From Flavobacteriia bacterium (GTDB lineage Bacteria > Bacteroidota > Bacteroidia > Flavobacteriales > Schleiferiaceae), in the NCBI GenBank assembly GCA_013373425.1, contig JABXHW010000032.1, positions 1 through 64,000 on the forward strand: a DNA stretch of 64,000 nucleotides. The letters are read 5' to 3'. Numbering within the stretch: position 1 is the stretch's first letter; every line of letters begins with the position of its first letter. This document shows positions 4,987-60,092 of the stretch, piece after piece. The position numbers and the translations under genes are program-made. The notes below the pieces were generated by a model. The model did not search any database and was not told the DNA's origin. It saw nothing but the letters and a program-made list of their open reading frames with translations.

Positions 4987-5751
4987 ATGAAAACCACCTT
5001 CTACAGACTACTCCTATTTTCCTTATTGATGATTGGAAGTGCGACTCATGCTCAACCAGGAAGCTATCATTATGCCTTCGGATTCAATCTGTACGCGAAT
5101 GGGAGATTAGTCGATTCAACAGATGGTTTTATAATTGAAGACTACTACGGACATGGCTTAGGTGCGTCCAACCCTCATGGAGGAAATGCTGAACGTCACT
5201 TTCAATGGACAGGTGTGCTAAACAAAAAGAGCATTGTTTTAAGTCAAATGTACCTATCGCCCATCCGTTTGAGAATAATCTCACCTCGAAAGGACACCAT
5301 GCTCCTCACCTACTACAATCGCAATGGGATGGACCATTATCACTTTATTGATAAAATGGAATTTCGGGAAGGCGAGTACGAAGTAATCAGTTTTCAATTC
5401 GCTCAATCCCGAGTTCTCTTGGGTAATGAGTTTTTTCTTTCCGCCTATTCTGACTCAGCTGGTTATCGAACGTGGTATTGCTACTACGACAATGACAGTT
5501 CGCGATTAAGTTCGAGCTACACCATGGATACAACAGGCAGAATTGTAGAGCACATCAGCATTCAGCCCGACAGTTCTTGGCACGTATCCATCTACCGACC
5601 AGAGTATCTCTACCGACAATACTCACCCGACGGACGACTTACCCATTGGTCGATTGGCACAGAACAAAAGCAATGGAACGATGAAGGCGAGCTCATCTTT
5701 CACATGAAAAATGAAAACGGTCAAGAGGTGGTTTATGTGGATGAAAGGTGA
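4987..5751 (+). CDS. Secreted protein with MORN/YwqK-like C-terminal repeats, unknown function
   Basis: 254 residues. Residues 1-22 form a signal peptide (hydrophobic stretch, then HAQPG). The C-terminal half has short strand-turn repeats such as YTMDTTGRIVEHISI, YRQYSPDGRLTHW and KQWNDEGELIFHM, resembling the MORN-like YwqK antitoxin-type repeats common in Bacteroidota periplasmic proteins. No catalytic motif is visible. It is divergent from the men operon and followed by another secreted gene. Function unknown. Confidence 0.7.
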   Translation: MKTTFYRLLLFSLLMIGSATHAQPGSYHYAFGFNLYANGRLVDSTDGFIIEDYYGHGLGASNPHGGNAERHFQWTGVLNKKSIVLSQMYLSPIRLRIISPRKDTMLLTYYNRNGMDHYHFIDKMEFREGEYEVISFQFAQSRVLLGNEFFLSAYSDSAGYRTWYCYYDNDSSRLSSSYTMDTTGRIVEHISIQPDSSWHVSIYRPEYLYRQYSPDGRLTHWSIGTEQKQWNDEGELIFHMKNENGQEVVYVDER

Positions 5752-8030: not shown

Positions 8031-8828
8031 ATGAACTCCCCATCCAAATACAACTCCATCGGTCATACGTATAACACTACCCGTATGGCCGACCCTTTTC
8101 TCCTATCCCGAATGAAATTCCATTTGGGGGAAGCGAAGAATTGCCTGGATGTTGGATCTGGAACGGGGAATTACACTATCGCGCTTTCTGAGAGTGGGAT
8201 TCAAATGACTGGAGTGGAACCTTCGGATGTTATGATCGAAAAAGCTAGATCAAAATCGGATGAGGTCGATTGGATTCAAGGAACAGCTGAGGAGTTCAAG
8301 CTTGACAGGCAGTTTGAATCTGGACTCGCATCGCTTACGTTGCATCATTGGAGGGATATTGAGCGCGGAATAGCAAACCTTCAAAACCACCTCTTACCGG
8401 GAGCTCCATTGGTCATTTTCACCTCTTCTCCAGAACAAATGGAAACCTATTGGCTAAGAGAGTACTTCCCAAAAATGCTGAAGGATTCATCCGATGCCAT
8501 GCCTTCTATTTCTGAAGTGGTTACTGCGCTCGAAAAGGCTGGATTCTCAGACTTTATTCATGAGAAATACTTCGTAAAACCCGACTTGAAAGATCAATTC
8601 TTGCAGTGCGGCAAGGATCAACCAGAACTCTACTTCAGAGAAGACATCCGAAAAGGCATTTCCTCCTTTCAATCCTTCTCCTACGCCGACGAAATTGAAT
8701 CCGGCCTCGCTCAACTGCGCTCAGACATAGATTCCGGTAAGTGGAAGGATATCCGCAACCAATACAACTCCGACCTCGGCGATTATTCCTTTATCATAGC
8801 TACTAACAAAAGTCGAGCTATTCAATAA
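8031..8828 (+). CDS. Class I SAM-dependent methyltransferase
   Basis: 265 residues. The SAM-binding motif I is CLDVGSGTGNYTIAL (residues ~38-52), followed by the acidic strand end TGVEPSDVMIEKA, then DWIQGTAEEFKL and the motif-IV-like SGLASLTLHHW. The pattern is that of UbiE/Methyltransf_11-type small-molecule methyltransferases. The substrate is unknown and the neighbours give no hint. The stop codon is followed directly by a period-8 repeat array. Confidence 0.85.
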   Translation: MNSPSKYNSIGHTYNTTRMADPFLLSRMKFHLGEAKNCLDVGSGTGNYTIALSESGIQMTGVEPSDVMIEKARSKSDEVDWIQGTAEEFKLDRQFESGLASLTLHHWRDIERGIANLQNHLLPGAPLVIFTSSPEQMETYWLREYFPKMLKDSSDAMPSISEVVTALEKAGFSDFIHEKYFVKPDLKDQFLQCGKDQPELYFREDIRKGISSFQSFSYADEIESGLAQLRSDIDSGKWKDIRNQYNSDLGDYSFIIATNKSRAIQ

Positions 8829-8980
8829 TCCAGCAATCCGGTCCTTCAGTTTCCCGTCTTCCAGTTTCCCAATCCTCCAGTTTTCCAATCCTCCAGAAGT
8901 CCAGTCCTCCAATCCTCCAAAAGTCCAGAAGTCCGAAAGTCTATCCGTCTAATAGTCTTCTAGTCCATCCGTCTTCCCTA
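8829..8980. repeat. Octad array (19 phase-locked 8-nt words) from stop codon to thrS promoter
   Basis: Cutting the sequence into eights from the first base after the TAA at 8826-8828 gives 19 words in constant phase, many of the form CCAnnnnT, for example CCAATCCT (three times), CCAGAAGT (twice), CCAGTCCT and CCATCCGT. The array reaches the thrS -7 box at 8979. It does not look coding. Confidence 0.85.
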
Positions 8981-8986
8981 CCTTTG
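8979..8986 (+). promoter_or_regulatory. -7 box (TACCTTTG) for thrS-infC-rpmI-rplT
   Basis: A TAnnTTTG match 31 bases before the thrS ATG. Its upstream -33 region falls inside the octad array and has no clear TTG. Confidence 0.65.
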
Positions 8987-9017
8987 TCTTTTACTTCACT
9001 CGTAACGAAGAACAAGA

Positions 9018-10958
9018 ATGATTAATGTTACTCTTCCCGACGGTTCTGTTCGGGAAATGCCAGACGGCAGCAGCGCCATGGATGTGGCGAAATCCATTAG
9101 CAATGGATTGGCTAGAAACGTACTCAGCGGATCTTACAACGGAGAAACCATCGAACTTCTAGAGCCTTTGAATGGCGATGGAAGCTTGGAGCTCTACACT
9201 TGGGATTCTGAAAAGGGAAAGGCGGCCTTTTGGCACTCTTCCGCTCACGTTCTTGCACAAACCCTGCTCCACTTCTATCCCGACGTAAAGTTGACGATCG
9301 GACCTCCTATCGACAGTGGGTTCTATTATGATGTCGACTTGAATGGCGCCACGATTGGAGAGGCCGACTTTGAAAAGATTGAAAAGCAGATGCTCGAATT
9401 CGCTCGTCAGAAAGCTGAATTCAAATTGCGTGCTGTTACCAAAGCTGAGGCTTTGGAATACTATAAAGACAATGAGTACAAGACGGAGCTCATTGAGAAT
9501 TTAGAAGACGGTACCATCACTTTTTGTGACCACAGCAACTTTACGGATTTGTGTAGAGGTGGACACATCCCGAACACAGGCTACATCAAGGCCGTGAAGG
9601 TGATGAACATCGCTGGTGCATACTGGAGAGGTAACGAAAAGAATCCTCAGCTTACCCGTGTTTACGGTGTTTCATTCCCGAAGGCAAGCATGCTCACAGA
9701 GCACCTTGAACTTCTTGAGGAAGCGAAAAAACGCGACCATAGAAAGTTGGGCAAAGAACTCGAGCTCTTCACTTTCTCACAGCGCGTAGGTCAAGGTTTG
9801 CCGCTTTGGTTGCCAAAAGGAGCTGCTTTGAGAGAGCGATTGGAGCAATTCCTCAAACGCGCACAAAAGAAAGCTGGATATGAGCAAGTGATCAGTCCGC
9901 ATATTGGCAACAAAGACCTCTATGTGACATCGGGTCACTATGCGAAGTACGGCAAAGACAGCTTCCAGCCTATCAACACTCCAGATGAAGGTGAGGAATA
10001 CCTGCTCAAGCCAATGAATTGTCCACACCACTGCGAGATTTATAAAGCCAACCCACACTCTTACCGCGATCTTCCCATTCGCTATGCTGAATTCGGAACG
10101 GTTTATCGCTATGAGCAAAGTGGCGAATTACACGGACTTACACGAGTTCGTGGCTTTACTCAGGATGATGCTCACATTTTCTGTACTCCAGATCAAGTGA
10201 AAGATGAGTTCATGAAGGTCATAGACCTCGTACTCTATATCTTTAAAACCCTCGACTTCGAGAACTTTACCGCTCAGGTATCGTTGAGAGATCCAGAAAA
10301 CAAAGAAAAGTACATCGGTTCTGATGAAAACTGGAAGATTGCTGAAGAAGCGATTATTGAGGCCGCCGATGAGAAGGGCTTAAAGACTGTGGTAGAACTT
10401 GGAGAAGCTGCGTTCTACGGTCCGAAGCTCGACTTCATGGTAAAAGATGCACTGGGAAGAAGCTGGCAGTTGGGTACCATTCAGGTAGACTACACCCTTC
10501 CCGAGCGCTTCGAATTGGAATACAAAGGAAGCGATAACGAGATGCACAGACCGGTGATGATTCACCGCGCACCGTTCGGATCGATGGAACGCTTTGTAGC
10601 TGTGTTACTTGAGCATTGTGGAGGAAACTTCCCACTTTGGCTCATGCCAGAGCAAGTTGCCATCCTTCCAATTTCAGATAAGTATCAGGACTACAGCGTG
10701 AAAGTTTCGAAATTGCTTGAAAATTACGATATTCGCGCCCTCATTGACGACCGAAGTGAGAAGATTGGAAGGAAGATTCGAGACGCTGAAGTGAAGAAGA
10801 TTCCATACATGTTGATCGTCGGTGAAAAAGAGACGGAAAGCGAAACTCTTTCTGTACGACGCCACGGCGAAGGTGACATTGGCACCATGACCGTTGCTGA
10901 ATTTGCAGAATTAGTATCGAACGAAGTAGAAGAAAAGTTAGCTGCATTTGAAAGCTAA
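9018..10958 (+). CDS. thrS: Threonyl-tRNA synthetase
   Basis: 646 residues, normal for bacterial ThrRS. Order: N-terminal TGS domain (1-61); editing domain with the HSSAH zinc/editing motif (His73, His77) and [17 protein letters not shown]; class II catalytic core with [13 protein letters not shown] (zinc Cys), [35 protein letters not shown], and [11 protein letters not shown]; then the anticodon-binding domain ending near residue 640. It charges tRNA-Thr and edits mis-charged serine. It heads a translation operon with infC, rpmI and rplT, a classic bacterial order, and is probably transcribed from the box at 8979. Confidence 0.98.
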
Positions 10959-13209: not shown

Positions 13210-13265
13210 CAAAACCTAAGCACCTTAGTACCTTAGCACCTCAAAACCTGAACACCTACCACCTG
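13210..13265. repeat. Octad array with ACCT word ends
   Basis: From the first base after the TAA of the 12478 gene the words read CAAAACCT, AAGCACCT, TAGTACCT, TAGCACCT, and so on: six successive octads end in ACCT. It stops just before the ATG at 13269. Confidence 0.85.
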
Positions 13266-16709: not shown

Positions 16710-16752
16710 ATCCGTACGTCCGCACATCCCTACGTCCGAACGTCCACACGTT
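16710..16752. repeat. Short octad array after a terminator
   Basis: Five period-8 words of the form CCnnACnT, such as CCGTACGT, CCGCACAT, CCGAACGT and CCACACGT, beginning right after the T-run. Confidence 0.8.
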
Positions 16753-20935: not shown

Positions 20936-21457
20936 GCAAGGATGCCCTTGAGCACTTAGGAACCTAGTGCGTAGTAGACCGTATGACTCCAAGTATCCTG
21001 AAAGGTGGGCAGGTGCGCAGGAACGCAGGTCGGCAGGTGACGAAATATCACCTTCACGGTTTCATCAGATGGATTTGCAGCATACATATGTCCTATTGAA
21101 CAGCATGCCAAGTACTCACTCCAACTATGTCGTGCACAGGTATGCAGGTACGCGGGTCGGCAGGTGACGAAATATCACCTTCACGGTTTCATCAGATGCA
21201 TTTGCAGCATACATATGCCCTATTGAACAGCATGCTCAGCACTCACTCCAACCAGTATTCTGTAAGGTGGGCAGGTGCGCAGGAACGCAGGTGCTGAGGA
21301 AGTGTAATCTCGCCTTCAGGGTTTCAAAGGATACATCCATCCTGGTTAATCGTCAGCTTAGTACTCTCTCCAACCGGTATTCAGTATCCAGTATTCAGTA
21401 TCCGCCTCACCTTCACCAATCTGTTCCAGTACCCAGTACCTAGAACCCAGCACCACT
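20936..21457. repeat. 522-bp gene-free gap: three 127-135-bp tandem copies plus octads and heptads
   Basis: Copies begin at 21029, 21156 and 21291. Copies 1 and 2 share a ~95-base core almost identically (GGTGACGAAATATCACC, which can form a small hairpin, then CTTCACGGTTTCATCAGATG, then GCAGCATACATATG). Copy 3 is clearly diverged (keeps CTTCA-GGTTTCA and CTCTCTCCAACC). Octads such as GTGGGCAG, GTGCGCAG and GTCGGCAG link the copies. After copy 3 come heptads of the CAGTATC / CCAGTAC type (21376-21454), which reach the stop of the next gene. No coding sequence is supported here. Confidence 0.8.
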
Positions 21458-29098: not shown

Positions 29099-29212
29099 GG
29101 GTTTTGGGGAATAGGTAGGTTGGTGATTTGGTAAGGCACAGACCAAACTACTAGGTCACTAGGTCACCAGATCACTAGTCTACTAAGTCACTAGCGCTCG
29201 CACGTCCCTACA
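29099..29212. repeat. Octad array from stop codon to next promoter (minus-strand reading)
   Basis: Read on the minus strand from the first base after the stop of the 29213 gene: 14 octads such as TGTAGGGA, CGCTAGTG, GACTAGTG, ACCTAGTG and ACCTAGTA. It contains the core CAGACCAAACTACTAGGT (29139-29156, plus strand) shared with the array at 31124, and its two halves are partly complementary. Confidence 0.85.
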
Positions 29213-31123: not shown

Positions 31124-31246
31124 ACTGGTGATTTGGTTAGCTAGTGATCTTGTAACCTGGTAAGGTTCAGACCAAAACTACTAGGTTACCCGCTCACTAG
31201 CTCACTAGCTCACCAGGTCACCAGGTCACCAGGTCACCAGGTCACC
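31124..31246. repeat. Octad array with fold-back structure
   Basis: Read on the minus strand it starts right after the lpd terminator U-run: GGTGACCT three times, then GGTGAGCT, AGTGAGCT, and related words, about 15 octads up to the M50 gene. The left half (31124-31163) is largely complementary to the right half (31182-31218), with the core CAGACCAAAACTACTAGGT (31168-31186) at the pivot. Confidence 0.88.
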
Positions 31247-31285
31247 AAAAATAAAAAACCCCGACAAGCATCAGCTTCGTCGGGG
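31247..31285 (-). terminator. Intrinsic terminator of lpd
   Basis: On the minus strand: arms CCCCGAC and GTCGGGG (31279-31285 and 31259-31265) around a ~13-base loop, followed by a U-run (A-rich on plus strand, 31247-31258). About 24 bases after the lpd stop. Confidence 0.9.
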
Positions 31286-44008: not shown

Positions 44009-45055
44009 ATGAAGATCACTCTAGCAGAAAAGTCACGCATTAACGAAGTTGATTTCGACAACCTAGCTTTTGGTACCAGCTTTACGGATCACATGCTTGT
44101 TTGCCACTATGAAAACGGTAAATGGCAGGAGCCTGAAATTCGTCCATACGGTGAGTTGAATGCCTCGTATGCGTTGCATGCATTGCACTACGGACAGTCT
44201 GCTTTTGAGGGAATGAAAGCGTACCGCAATCAGCAAGGTGAAGTTGCACTTTTCCGTCCGGAGCAAAACTGGGCACGTTTGAATCGTTCTGCTGAGCGTT
44301 TGCTCATGCCAGCCGTTCCCGAAGAAGTTTTTCTCGGTGGTCTTAAAAAGCTAATCGATATTGATGCTGCCTGGGTTCCGCAAGACGAAGTGAAGTCGCT
44401 TTACATTCGTCCATTCCTTTTTGCGAGTAGTGAATTCATCGCAGCACGCCCAAGTGAGCGTTACACGTTTGCCGTGATTTGTTCGCCTGTTGGACCTTAC
44501 TACGCAGGCGCCGTAAAGGTGAAGATTGAAGATAAGTTCACTCGCGCAACTGGTGGTGGCATTGGCTTTACCAAAGCTGCAGGAAATTACGGTGGTGCAT
44601 TCTACCCTACCGCCAAAGCGATTGAAGAAGGATATAACCAAGTTATTTGGACCGATCACGCGAACCACGAGCGCATCGAGGAGAGCGGCACAATGAACAT
44701 CATGTTCAGAATTGGCGATACCATGGTTACTCCTCCACTCACCGACCGCATCCTAGCGGGCATCACAAGAGAATCTATTCTCACCCTACTTCGTGAATGG
44801 GGACACAACGTAGAAGAACGTCCGATTACTGTTACCGAAGTCGTTGAGGCTGCCAAGACAGGCAACTTACACGAAGCATTCGGCATGGGAACAGCAGCTG
44901 TAGTAAGCCCAATTCAACAAATCGGATATCAAGGCACACGCTACGAAATCCCTAATCCAAATGATGGCATGGCCGCAAAAATCCGTGAAGGCTTGAACGA
45001 CATCCGTTTGGGCCGTGTGGAGGATAAGCACGGTTGGATGGTTTCAGTCAAGTAG
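44009..45055 (+). CDS. ilvE: Branched-chain amino acid aminotransferase
   Basis: 348 residues from the ATG at 44009; an in-frame TTG at 43988 overlaps the promoter box. Class IV PLP aminotransferase: LHYGQSAFEGMKAYR, IRPFLFASSEFI, GFTKAAGNYGGAFYPTAKA with the PLP Lys, and IEESGTMNIMF. Transfers amino groups to and from Leu, Ile and Val keto acids. Its TAG is followed directly by a heptad array. Confidence 0.95.
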   Translation: MKITLAEKSRINEVDFDNLAFGTSFTDHMLVCHYENGKWQEPEIRPYGELNASYALHALHYGQSAFEGMKAYRNQQGEVALFRPEQNWARLNRSAERLLMPAVPEEVFLGGLKKLIDIDAAWVPQDEVKSLYIRPFLFASSEFIAARPSERYTFAVICSPVGPYYAGAVKVKIEDKFTRATGGGIGFTKAAGNYGGAFYPTAKAIEEGYNQVIWTDHANHERIEESGTMNIMFRIGDTMVTPPLTDRILAGITRESILTLLREWGHNVEERPITVTEVVEAAKTGNLHEAFGMGTAAVVSPIQQIGYQGTRYEIPNPNDGMAAKIREGLNDIRLGRVEDKHGWMVSVK

Positions 45056-45294
45056 TACTGGGTACTGGGTACTAGGTACTGGGTACAAACTACTAGAGAG
45101 GACAATTCTTTTGATAGGATTAGGGTCGGACTGGAGGACTGGAGGACTGGAGGACTGGAAAAATAGACTCTTGGACTAATGACCACAAGGTTACTAGGTT
45201 ACTAAGTTACCAGACACCAAGTAACCTGCTCACTAGCTCACCAACCTACACTCCTGCGCTCTTGCGTTCCTGCGATCCTCAATCCCTAAACCCT
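45056..45294. repeat. Heptad then octad arrays filling the gap between convergent stop codons
   Basis: Heptads TACTGGG, TACTAGG, TACAAAC, TACTAGA run from the first base after the ilvE TAG (45056-45097). Octads GGACTGGA type follow at 45126-45160, then octads from 45181 in constant phase whose words change from GGTTACTA to CTCACTAG to CCTGCGCT to CTTGCGTT types, ending at the stop of the minus-strand gene at 45295. Confidence 0.85.
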
Positions 45295-45924: not shown

Positions 45925-46830
45925 ATGAAAAAAGTATTGATAACAGGTGGATCTGGATTAGTGGGTAAAACACTCACCCGCCTCTTACTTGAGCAAGGCG
46001 TTGAAGTTCATTGGCTGAGCACACGAAAGTCGGCATCTTATCCCAATGTGACTATACATTATTGGAATCCGTCTAAACTAGAAATGGAAGAAGCCGCGCT
46101 TGGTGGTGTTGATACTGTTTTCAATCTCGCTGGTGCCAATGTGGCCATGCGGTGGACAGAGGAAAACAAGCGCAAGATTATGGATAGTCGCGTGCAAGGC
46201 GCGCAAACACTCTACAATTATCTAGCGAACTCAGGTGCTAAACCAAACATCGTTTCTGCTAGCGCGGTGGGGTATTACCCTTCCGATTACAATAAATTGT
46301 ATATCGAAAGTGACGCTCCGAACAACGACTTTCTAGGAACGGTAGTCCAAAAATGGGAAGAAGCTGTAGATCAAATGACCAAGCTCAATCTTCGAGTGGT
46401 CAAGCTGCGTATTGGCATCGTACTCGACAAAGGTGGCGGCGCACTTGGGCAAATGCTACTTCCTTTCAAGTTGGGTGTGGGATCTCCATTGGGCTCTGGT
46501 AAGCAATGGATGCCGTGGATTCACGTAGAAGACTTAGCCCGCATGTTTATCCACCTCGCAGAAGACTCTTCTGCATCTGGAGCCTATAATGCCGCCGCAG
46601 AAAATCAGGTACGCAACAAGGAGTTTGGAGCAAAACTCGCCAAAGCCCTTAATCGTCCATATTTCTTTCCTCCCGTTCCTGCATTTGCACTCAAGCTAGT
46701 CCTCGGAGAGATGGCCTTCATTGCTCTGATGTCAACTCAAATCTCAGTGGAAAAGGTAAAGGCTACGGGGTTCGAGTGGAAGCATACCGACTTGCTCGAA
46801 GCGTTGGAAGATGTAATAGATAGGTACTGA
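45925..46830 (+). CDS. TIGR01777 family NAD(P)-dependent epimerase/SDR
   Basis: 301 residues from the ATG at 45925 (MKKVLITGGSGLVGKTL); an earlier in-frame ATG at 45859 is unlikely. Rossmann motif ITGGSGLVG, VFNLAGANVAMRWTEENKRKIMDSRVQGAQTL, SASAVGYYPSDYNKL and a DUF1731-like C-terminus (EWKHTDLLEALEDVI). Extended SDR, substrate unknown. The final codons TAC TGA already belong to the heptad array. Confidence 0.9.
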   Translation: MKKVLITGGSGLVGKTLTRLLLEQGVEVHWLSTRKSASYPNVTIHYWNPSKLEMEEAALGGVDTVFNLAGANVAMRWTEENKRKIMDSRVQGAQTLYNYLANSGAKPNIVSASAVGYYPSDYNKLYIESDAPNNDFLGTVVQKWEEAVDQMTKLNLRVVKLRIGIVLDKGGGALGQMLLPFKLGVGSPLGSGKQWMPWIHVEDLARMFIHLAEDSSASGAYNAAAENQVRNKEFGAKLAKALNRPYFFPPVPAFALKLVLGEMAFIALMSTQISVEKVKATGFEWKHTDLLEALEDVIDRY

Positions 46831-46976
46831 GTACTGAGTACTGAGTACTGGGTACTGGGTACTGGGTACTGGGACTTGATACTGAAAACTGGATACTCAA
46901 TACTAGGAGCTAGCGTGCTAACATAATTTTCTGCATTCCTGCGCTCCTGCATTCCTGCCCTCCTGCGTTCCTCCAC
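46824..46976. repeat. Heptad array (GTACTGA/GTACTGG) then octad array (CTCCTGCG type)
   Basis: GTACTGA repeats from 46824, supplying the TGA stop of the epimerase gene, change to GTACTGG and then to more degenerate words until about 46910. Octads such as CCTGCGCT, CCTGCATT, CCTGCCCT and CCTGCGTT follow at 46929-46976 and stop at the yceI terminator U-run. Confidence 0.88.
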
Positions 46977-57854: not shown

Positions 57855-59492
57855 ATGTACACAAAAGCTGATTTAGCACAGAAGAAACTTCCAGAACTCA
57901 AGGAAATTGGCATCGCTTTAAACATCCCTAAAGCCCGCTACATGCGGAAGCCAGAACTCATCGAAGCCATCGTCGGCGGAGGTTCACCCACTGCAGCTCC
58001 TTCTGAAAAGTCCGAAAAAGGAACGACCGACAACGCTCCATCTTCTACACCTTCATCGAATGATCAAGGTAAAGAGCGTCAAGAGAATCAACGCCGAGAG
58101 CGACGACCAAGAAGACCGCAAGGTGAAGAAGGCTCGTCAGATCAGAATTCAGATTCTAAAGGAAATGATTCTTCTGCTCAGAATAACGATCGACGTAATG
58201 ATCGCAACGATCGCGGAGAGCACAGAAACCAGAACAACCGCCAGAATCAGAATGATCGTCAGAATCAGAACGATCGCCGCAATCGCAATCAGAATCGCAA
58301 CCAGAATAATCAGAACAACAACAACAACAATAACAACCGTCAGCAAGACCGCAAGCCAAAGCGCCCAGAGTTCGAGTTTGATGGCCTCATTGTTACAGAA
58401 GGTGTTCTAGAAATCATGCCAGATGGATATGGTTTCCTTCGTTCAAGTGATTACAACTACTTGAATTCACCGGACGACGTTTATGTATCGCAAAGCCAAA
58501 TCAAGCTCTTTGGTTTGAAGACTGGCGACACGGTTCGCGGGCAAGTTCGCCCACCAAAAGAGGGTGAAAAGTACTTCCCTCTTACTCAAATTGAAAAAAT
58601 CAACGGTCGAGAGCCAGACTACGTGAGAGATCGCGTGGCATTTGAACACCTCACTCCCCTTTTTCCAAATGAGAAGTTCAATATCACTGACCGAAAAGGC
58701 ACATTGAGCACGCGTGTAATCGACCTGTTCTCTCCTATCGGGAAAGGTCAGCGTGGACTCATCGTTTCTCAACCAAAGACGGGTAAAACTACTTTGTTGA
58801 AAGAAGTAGCAAATGCCATTGCTGCAAACCACCCTGAGGCTTACATGATTATCCTTCTCATCGACGAACGTCCGGAGGAAGTTACAGACATGGCCCGCAG
58901 TGTAAATGCAGAAGTGGTTGCATCTACATTCGACGAACCAGCGGATCGTCACGTTCGAGTGGCAAACATCGTACTCGAGAAGGCAAAGAGAATGGTAGAA
59001 TGTGGTCACGATGTGATTATTCTCCTCGATTCCATTACTCGTCTAGCACGTGCCTACAACACCGTTTCACCGGCATCGGGTAAAGTACTATCAGGTGGTG
59101 TTGATGCGAACGCTTTACACAAGCCTAAGCGCTTCTTCGGTGCAGCACGTAATATCGAAGACGGGGGATCTCTAACGATTCTTGCAACCGCATTGATCGA
59201 CACAGGTTCTAAGATGGATGAGGTGATCTTTGAAGAATTTAAGGGTACTGGTAACATGGAAATGCAACTCGATCGTCGTATTTCGAACCGCCGTATCTAC
59301 CCTGCTATCGACCTCATGGCTTCGGGTACGCGTAAAGAAGATATGCTACTCAACCCAGATGTATTGGGACGTATGTATATCCTCCGTCGCCACTTGGCAG
59401 ACATGACACCGGTGGAAGCTATGGAGTTCATGCACGACCGTATGTCTAAGACGCAGAACAACGAAGAATTCTTGATCAGTATGAACGGTTAA
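57855..59492 (+). CDS. rho: Transcription termination factor Rho with N/Q/R-rich insert
   Basis: 545 residues from the ATG at 57855. Rho_N domain (1-43), then a disordered insert (44-170) rich in Asn, Gln, Arg, Asp and Ser with a run of eight Asn at 154-161, then the cold-shock-type RNA-binding domain (~175-250: [31 protein letters not shown]) and the RecA-like ATPase with Walker [23 protein letters not shown] and [17 protein letters not shown]. Ends transcription at C-rich, unstructured RNA. Such inserts are known in Bacteroidota Rho and can drive condensate formation. The gene has a leader of about 200 bases. Confidence 0.97.
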
Positions 59493-59558
59493 TCACCGTT
59501 TTCTTTGAACTCAAGCGTCTTTCTATTGTTGACAAGACAAACAAAAATTCAAACGAAG

Positions 59559-60092
59559 ATGAAATCAAAATATCTCAAGTTAACTGCAGCAGTCATCGCT
59601 ACTTCAATGTTGGTAGCATGTGGAGGTGGTGACAATGGAGATGCCAGCACGGGTGAATCTGACAACGCTGCTACTGAATCTACTACACCGGAAGAAACAG
59701 TAGCTCCAGAGGATTTGCCTGTAGCAGAATTCACCATTGAGGCGAATGATGCCATGCAATACAATCTCGACAAAATGGAGGTGAAAGCCGGACAAACTGT
59801 ACGTGTTACTCTAAAGAATGTTGGGAGTATGCCTGTAGAGCAAATGGGCCATAATTGGACTTTGCTCAACTCAGGCGTAGATCCAAATACATACGGTGGA
59901 GCGGCCATTCAACACAAGGATGAAGGATTTCAGGTGCCAGGAACTGATGATGTTATCGTAAACACATCGATGCTCGGTCCTGGTCAAGAAGAAACCGTTG
60001 AATTCACAGCGCCAAGCACAGGAATCTATAAGTACATCTGTACATTCCCTGGACACTACAGCGCAATGAAAGGAACGTTCTTGGTTCGCTAA
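59559..60092 (+). CDS. Azurin-like blue-copper lipoprotein
   Basis: 177 residues from the ATG at 59559; an upstream in-frame start at 59505 would bury the signal. Lipoprotein signal with Cys21 (MLVACGGG), an acidic linker, then an azurin fold with type 1 copper ligands His (MGHNW), Cys and His (CTFPGHYSAMKG) and Met (the M of SAMKG). Periplasmic or outer-membrane electron carrier. Only 66 bases follow rho, so read-through from rho is possible. Confidence 0.92.
   Translation: MKSKYLKLTAAVIATSMLVACGGGDNGDASTGESDNAATESTTPEETVAPEDLPVAEFTIEANDAMQYNLDKMEVKAGQTVRVTLKNVGSMPVEQMGHNWTLLNSGVDPNTYGGAAIQHKDEGFQVPGTDDVIVNTSMLGPGQEETVEFTAPSTGIYKYICTFPGHYSAMKGTFLVR

Follow-up and report, generated by a model that had tools for sequence, protein, structure and literature searches.

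The window, the whole stretch of 64,000 nucleotides analysed here, carries on its plus strand a gene for a SAM-dependent methyltransferase (8031–8828; Pfam Methyltransf_11, 5.4e-14) followed by thrS, which encodes threonyl-tRNA synthetase (9018–10958; Pfam tRNA-synt_2b, HGTP_anticodon, tRNA_SAD, and TGS). All gene calls were made with a simple codon-score caller, not a standard annotator. The methyltransferase stop codon ends at 8828, and an array of 8-nt words occupies 8829–8980, reaching into the sequence TACCTTTG at 8979–8986, which, by its consensus, we take to be the Bacteroidota-type -7 box of the thrS promoter. In a phase-variable promoter, a repeat sits between the promoter elements and its length sets their distance. 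By its position the array, which adjoins this box, covers the place of a -33 element, and no -33 box was recognised by eye. Below, G000 denotes the genome of the window, and G001 and G002 denote two congeners, each species being represented by a single genome.

The original prediction described 19 octads in a single phase from the stop codon to the -7 box. The run itself stands, but words 1–3 (8829–8852) are one base off the register of the remaining words, so that strict phase holds for 16 of the 19, which follow the pattern C[CT]A.{4}T (8853–8980). The claim that most words begin with C and end with T agrees with the word list, where C opens 16 of 19 words and T closes 15 of 19 (16/16 and 14/16, respectively, among the strict-phase words). 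Read in another register, the strict-phase words are GTCYANNA on the thrS side and TCCARTCC-like on the methyltransferase side.

The octad array before thrS is real. The self-match of 8829–8981 is 0.586, 0.599, 0.589, 0.545, and 0.522 at lags 8, 16, 24, 32, and 40, compared with about 0.278 at lag 8 in dinucleotide shuffles (z 7.4); none of 1000 shuffles reaches 0.586, and over lags 1–40 no shuffle exceeds 0.467. Tandem Repeats Finder also reports periods of 16 and 24 nt. The similarity of adjacent units is about 61%. In 7 of 24 arrays, the thrS array included, some positions of the word vary more than others (p<0.01), which does not prove constraint because the units are not independent.

Neither coding sequence nor a terminator explains the array, as had been claimed: no ORF of at least 100 aa spans the gap, and 8700–9100 contains no intrinsic terminator. 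A search of 8400–9400 against Rfam 15 gave a single match up to an E value of 1, which scored under the gathering threshold and lies outside the array. The array RNA folds into no stable structure (z -0.55), and reading and folding of 8829–8981 revealed no palindromic REP/REPIN module.

Downstream of the box, the thrS leader contains a hairpin (8994–9010; CTTC-ACTCGTAAC-GAAG) 7 nt ahead of the start codon, with a loop, CUCGUAA, that resembles the threonine tRNA anticodon loop (NGU). A CTTC/GAAG hairpin with an NGU loop, a pattern chosen after its sighting in the window, occurs in 6 of 110 thrS leaders (G000, G001, G002, G012, G013, and L042); a seventh match is unlike these, the rate in shuffled leaders is 15/2200, and the stem shows no covariation. 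Judged from its sequence, this hairpin may be a mimic used in ThrRS autoregulation.

Period 7–8 arrays recur in the sequence scanned, which comprised about 460 kb of G000 including the window plus about 130 kb of array loci, some overlapping; 400 kb of G001; and 400 kb of G002, to which array loci add a further 100 kb or so. The autocorrelation check proposed in the original prediction, run on the roughly 460 kb of G000, gives an intergenic excess over shuffles at lag 8 (z 8.7) that persists without the thrS gap (z 8.5). At the same lag, G002 reaches z 11.7 and G001 shows no excess (z -0.2), while lag 7 lies above shuffles in G000, G001, and G002 (z 4.0, 7.5, and 7.9). Other raised lags include 4–6 in G000 (z 3.3–4.3), 9, 11, 12, and 14 in G001 (z 6.8–7.9), and multiples such as 16 and 24. 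Sampled stretches of coding DNA show a three-base rhythm alone.

Arrays were listed at a score of at least 18 over lags 5–15, with a longer list at a score of at least 14. At the higher threshold there are 15 intergenic arrays in 52 kb of G000 (five of period 7, ten of period 8), 11 in G001 (periods 7, 9, 11, and 14), and 21 in G002 (16 of period 8, two of period 7, three others); shuffled intergenic DNA yields none in 10 rounds. Arrays are nearly absent from coding DNA, with two in each genome's 351–414 kb (periods 6, 9, 12, or 15); the two in the 414 kb from G000 have periods 6 and 15, and none has period 7 or 8. Across 80 thrS loci, mostly of Flavobacteriales and totalling 1.09 Mb, we found 16 arrays of periods 7–11, 13, and 14. 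Nine have period 7, and a single array falls within a long ORF. The class of short-period arrays is therefore wide, but sparser outside the three congeners, as judged from this set with a coarser coding mask.

The array scan of the window places further octad arrays at 13214–13257 (ACCTNAGY-like, beginning 4 nt past a stop codon), 16711–16751 (TCCGNACG-like, past what by eye is a terminator-like hairpin), 29150–29185 (ACTAGGTC), and 31179–31247 (AGGTCACC, adjoining a terminator-like hairpin, again by eye). Two plus-strand heptad arrays, GTACTGG at 45055–45086 and GTACTGR at 46824–46904, each lie at the stop codon of the gene to the left. Octad arrays of GGACTGGA, then AGGTTACT, then CCTGCGNT occupy a single convergent gap at 45128–45279, and a plus-strand CCTGCGYT-like octad array at 46928–46972 ends ahead of a hairpin that looks terminator-like by eye. 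In addition, at 21010–21283 a 127-bp unit containing CCTGCG-type octads is directly duplicated, the copies being 92% alike.

The families of units are bound to a species or genus. Four tandem GTCYANNA units match 31 times in G000, dispersed over 11 loci, and 91 times in G002; the other 38 of the 40 genomes searched have no match, and the reversed control has none. Three GTACTGR units match 162 times in G000 (reversed control 0), twice in G001, and not at all in G002; the pattern occurs in 12 of 40 genomes, including G025 (77 matches, mostly TTACTGG heptads), G005 (14), and others with one or two, against a reversed control of up to 13 in one genome (G008). Three CCTGCGNN units match 84 times in G000 (control 1), never in either congener, and one to five times in five other genomes. 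As for the expectation of matching arrays in relatives, both congeners do carry arrays, but these are largely built of other units. G025, which belongs to another family, has long perfect TTACTGG arrays on many contigs, some at contig starts. At least 14 of 76 G000 contigs start within a GTACTG heptad array and several others end in one; hence these arrays seem to break the G000 assembly.

The array is absent from the thrS gaps of both congeners. In G001 the region upstream of thrS is an 865-bp gap holding heptads of the CATCCGT and CACCCAT types and other repeats, and in G002 it is a 96-bp gap with no array. By eye, the -7 box letters and the leader are alike in all three genomes. Because G000 has a different upstream gene, only the thrS side of the gap is comparable. 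Among gaps with conserved neighbours, arrays scoring at least 14 are present in both species in 0 of 59 (G000/G001), 0 of 59 (G000/G002), and 1 of 169 (G001/G002), and in this single case, with 7–8-nt arrays on both sides, the units differ and the lengths are about equal (350 and 358), which speaks against net insertion there. An array is found in one species alone in two, five, and five such gaps, respectively. Where that array has period 7–8, the gap is longer: 239 versus 4 and 0, 210 versus 56 and 56, and 126 versus 44; further such gaps measure 615 versus 75 and 60, 865 versus 96, and 1164 versus 125. These differences fit net insertions. For two gaps whose 11-nt arrays are AT-rich or weak, the excess over the array-free orthologues is at most 14 nt.

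Several single loci add to this comparison. The gap between RF2-like and threonine-aldolase-like genes (names by eye), which lies outside the conserved-neighbour sets, contains octads in G000 as well as in G002, and the gene toward which the GTCY words point differs between the two. In G001, the thrS gap and the gap between genes 280 and 281 of G001_C1 contain a hairpin, CACGCGAAAGGATTCGCGCGG, amid CATCCGT-type heptads, a third species-bound mosaic. In G002, a methyltransferase similar by eye to that of the window is flanked on the 5' side by a GTCYANNA array (L290); for the window's gene (8031–8828), the array is on the 3' side. As candidates for synteny breakpoints, arrays were rejected, with no significant enrichment in four comparisons (Fisher p 0.06 to 1.0).

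Similarity between units of the thrS array declines with the distance between them (r=-0.592 over 19 units, p=0.0002, the smallest value possible at 5000 shuffles of unit order). Among nine other arrays tested, six show such decay at p<0.05 and three show none. Exact 9-mer pairs within the thrS array are spaced by multiples of 8 (16, 24, 32, or 40) in 14 of 16 cases; the other two spacings are 15 and 115. Decay and spacing in multiples of 8 are expected of slippage or unequal exchange, and they favour the growth by slippage that had been suggested, although slippage itself is what we infer from them. Together they form a pattern of local duplication in whole steps, not of a single binding consensus held by selection.

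The thrS array is also collinear with other loci of its family: all ten compared exceed shuffles of unit order (p 0.002–0.018, 500 shuffles), in part because of a common gradient from TCCAG/CCAATCC words to GTCTA words. Under three nulls that keep this gradient, p is 0.004–0.008 for C34, 0.003–0.029 for C54m, and 0.001–0.058 for C54p, so that p stays below 0.05 in every null for C34 and C54m and in two of them for C54p. Another four loci (C17, C39, C57, and C73) fall below 0.05 in one or two of these nulls and not in the column null, and three of the ten (C21a, C21b, and C28) never do; in the C21b alignment, the reverse complement scores 22 against 24 for the array. Since C34 and C54 retain shared order when the gradient is kept, at least two unlinked arrays share ancestry or exchange sequence with the thrS array.

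Members of the GTCYANNA family usually lie just before a gene and read toward it. The loci were found by pattern; all 11 in G000 were read, giving 12 rows because one locus counts on both strands, and those in G002 were read in part. The next downstream gene is co-oriented with the array in 10 of 12 rows in G000 and 18 of 25 in G002, and it begins within 120 nt in nine (24–109 nt) and 13 of these rows, respectively; some loci contribute several rows that are not independent, such as three from L293. At one G000 locus and two G002 loci (L282, minus strand; L285 9241; and L286 3254), the 15-mer CAACCAAAATCAGGA stands just upstream of the array, and these are its only occurrences in the sequence of the three genomes scanned for it.

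The original prediction also proposed that the array may act as a spacer, insulator, or RNA-level boundary. An RNA-level boundary is not supported, because family arrays also sit between divergent genes (5 of 12 G000 rows, or 4 of 11 loci), where no upstream transcript ends. For the same placement, a Rho-type boundary, suggested by a C-rich, G-poor stretch after a stop codon, is not favoured: no transcript enters these divergent gaps from upstream. We found no evidence of an insulator or spacer function at thrS, where both congeners lack the array.

Base composition was compared between strands for arrays of periods 7, 8, 9, 13, and 14 from the unbiased list that lie no more than 200 nt from the edge of a gene. 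On the coding strand, C outnumbers G in 19 of the 22 arrays closest to a 5' end, and G outnumbers C in 19 of the 30 closest to a 3' end (the reverse in eight, equal in three). The two groups differ (p=1.2e-4), and comparison with array-free gaps gives p=1.9e-5 and 0.006. The first tendency comes mainly from G002 (14/14; G000 2/4, G001 3/4) and the second mainly from G000 (12/18); the rule holds over the three genomes combined. Skew also falls with the relative place of an array within its gap (rho -0.54, n=52; G000 alone -0.44, p=0.052), but this relation fails in the seven arrays of divergent gaps, and gaps without arrays show a similar, weak tendency. The thrS array contradicts the nearest-edge rule, its nearest edge being the methyltransferase stop and its skew -0.48. 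A general pyrimidine orientation of arrays was not seen in G000, with a value for upstream halves of 0.536 in arrays and 0.531 outside.

Larger composite elements accompany the simple arrays. In G000, GTACTG heptads lead into a core of about 85 nt, then ATACTGG heptads, then CCTGCG octads; this element has 38 matches in G000, some partial, and none in 25 other genomes, and it occurs in the window at 45055–45279, 46824–46972, and 21003–21446. Among 28 GTACTG rows, six lie near a contig start with no callable left gene; in 13 of the other 22 the heptads start at most 9 nt from a co-oriented stop codon, and in nine they do not. A hairpin among octads has 30 copies in 500 kb of G002, sequence chosen in part for its arrays, and none in the G000 and G001 sequence examined. 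Ordered mosaics in G002, for example at G002_C1 58540–59700 and 239224–239702 (a joined stretch), run from the hairpin CCCGAATCGGCT.CGCCTCTCGGGA to AGTCGGAAC words and TCTAACCC octads. At L293 (G002:C11), hairpin-bearing units with GTCYANNA octads are repeated no more than a few kb from a transposase gene, with a Y1 transposase domain at G002:C11:6444–6785. The sole Y1 transposase gene found in G000 (L308, G000:C61) is preceded by CATCGGGT..ACCCGATG hairpins, which we liken to those of REP-associated transposases.

On balance, we favour the reading that the thrS array belongs to the known short-period repeats of intergenic DNA, as a degenerate member that grew by slippage. Because its word order is shared with some unlinked arrays and its unit family is confined to 2 of 40 genomes, the array would have been seeded by sister arrays elsewhere in G000, or would be exchanging sequence with them. 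It would then have expanded and contracted in steps of 8, 16, and 24 bp through replication slippage or unequal exchange, with point mutations spread through it as it grew and shrank, and would persist because the stretch from the methyltransferase stop to the -7 box probably does little work, leaving it now immediately upstream of that box. Growth confined to thrS, from a seed found nowhere else, would agree with the same decay and 8n spacing; this alternative is very doubtful given GTCYANNA units at 11 G000 loci and at many in G002, and the order shared with C54 and C34 already weakens it. Neutral slippage alone leaves the upstream placement toward genes, the strand bias, and the uneven word variation unexplained. 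A promoter role is possible. The octads could be a functional promoter-side element with repeated sites bound by a protein that recognises T-C-Y-A every 8 nt and either stands in for the -33 contact or screens the promoter. The counts of co-oriented downstream genes and the invariant C at the start of strict-phase words are in keeping with such an element, as is the housekeeping-like look of the downstream genes by eye: presumably RF2-, deformylase-, RuvX-, TatA-, and COX15-like in G000, where thrS alone was run against Pfam, and glycyl-tRNA synthetase-, isocitrate dehydrogenase-, and HemB-like in G002. We nonetheless consider it unlikely: at thrS, G001 has different heptads and G002 no array; similarity decays along the array without a single consensus being held; and unit counts reflect non-independent events. 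In 16 of 28 rows a -7-like box separates the array from the start, a share near the background of 0.53 from the 70 nt before all genes with gaps of at least 60 nt, a rough comparison since the scanned lengths differ.

The remaining alternatives turn on the composite elements and the strand bias. That the array is a passenger or remnant of a dispersed REP- or BOX-like composite repeat copied by mobile machinery would suit the G000 composite element, the G002 hairpin beside octads, and the word order common to some unlinked arrays. We judge this rather unlikely, as neither the composite core nor the hairpins of the G000 and G002 elements were seen in the thrS array, and Y1 transposase domains (PF01797) number one in G000, none in G001, and three in G002, though all three carry arrays; a Y1 transposase as general driver is accordingly not supported. 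Reverse transcriptase domains (RVT_1) number one, none, and none in the same genomes. A telomere-like process, in which a reverse transcriptase extends broken DNA ends with repeats before they are joined, would account for the tendency of the G-rich strand to read away from the abutting gene, but the missing matches in two of three array-bearing congeners, array-rich G002 included, lead us to reject such an origin as a general cause. Moreover, apart from that contig's GTACTG arrays, only scattered single units lie near the sole G000 RVT_1, and the strand rule has the exceptions in divergent gaps and the weak parallel in array-free gaps given above; this origin is extremely improbable. Finally, short-period arrays of unrelated bacteria could share one strand rule, with the G-rich strand directed away from the abutting gene, and the octads would then be old, diverged products of one process behind that rule; we regard this as improbable. 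Slippage-driven growth of a seeded array remains our preferred reading for thrS, with the array's lack of function a presumed part of it.

Filamentous cyanobacteria have STRR, tandem arrays of short units that lie between genes and share a consensus within a family, and near-perfect unit identity is usual for the LSSR and STRR class; the long simple sequence repeats (LSSRs) of Mrazek et al. reportedly form long, more regular runs. Heptanucleotide intergenic repeats are indeed the nearest described class, as was proposed: the thrS array has tandem units in the 5–11 nt range beyond chance, and since its neighbouring units are about 0.61 alike, it would be a degenerate variant. Cyanobacterial STRR are heptads, whereas the thrS array is made of octads in a member of the Bacteroidota. 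The composite elements of G000 and G002 are dispersed, intergenic, and modular, like BOX elements and REP/REPIN, but the thrS array itself has no palindrome or defined ends that we saw, and transposase domains are not consistently present. In the available part of PMC3116915, REP/REPIN are likewise dispersed intergenic repeats.

Mrazek et al. (2007), as described in the accessible parts of PMC4679880 and PMC4692102, reported LSSRs of 5–11 nt in prokaryotes, which our arrays resemble in having tandem units of this size, with heptads commonest, a scattered phylogenetic distribution, and slippage as the proposed cause; unlike them, adjacent units here have a similarity of about 61%, the main period is 8 in G000 and G002, and dispersed families show some shared order. 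The Xanthomonas and Nostoc heptads GGGAATC and GGGGA(C/T)T are similar in several respects. The accessible text of PMC4692102, which also mentions tandem heptanucleotides in Calothrix, counts heterogeneous Xanthomonas units within the repeat class and describes repeats that are dispersed, mostly intergenic, and composed of heterogeneous units with some fixed positions, with length and sequence varying between related species, all as seen here. The strand rule in that text is also the same, with the G-rich strand being the non-coding strand upstream of genes and the coding strand downstream. Those units form G-quadruplexes, whereas the thrS words have no G-tracts, and most of those repeats are flanked by the same genes in a pair of related species, compared with 1/169, 0/59, and 0/59 conserved pairs here (PMC4692102, in the same part). 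TAACTGA heptads are described in the available part of PMC4679880 from Beggiatoaceae, Cyanobacteria, and five Bacteroidetes including Flavobacteriia; as in our genomes, there are long arrays in gaps that are shorter and without obvious repeats in relatives, and contigs that end in repeats. TAACTGA is a single fixed heptad, however, present in the main organism mostly as a few copies before start codons, while the arrays analysed here comprise several species-bound 7- and 8-nt families. In the open literature, with most subscription papers outside its scope, we found no earlier description of octad arrays in Schleiferiaceae.

These observations indicate that species of a single Bacteroidota genus contain sets of degenerate intergenic arrays with 7- and 8-nt units, and that these sets differ from one congener to the next. 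The arrays accompany longer gaps, extend up to promoters, and in G000 stand at assembly breaks. If the strand rule, a C-rich coding strand upstream of genes and a G-rich one downstream, proves general, a single shared process, such as the repair of ends, the stalling of forks where genes begin or end, or counter-selection of the other polarity, would make or filter all such arrays. The strand bias at gene edges, already published for the Xanthomonas and Nostoc heptads, makes the old question of the nature of these repeats testable by a survey of many genomes.
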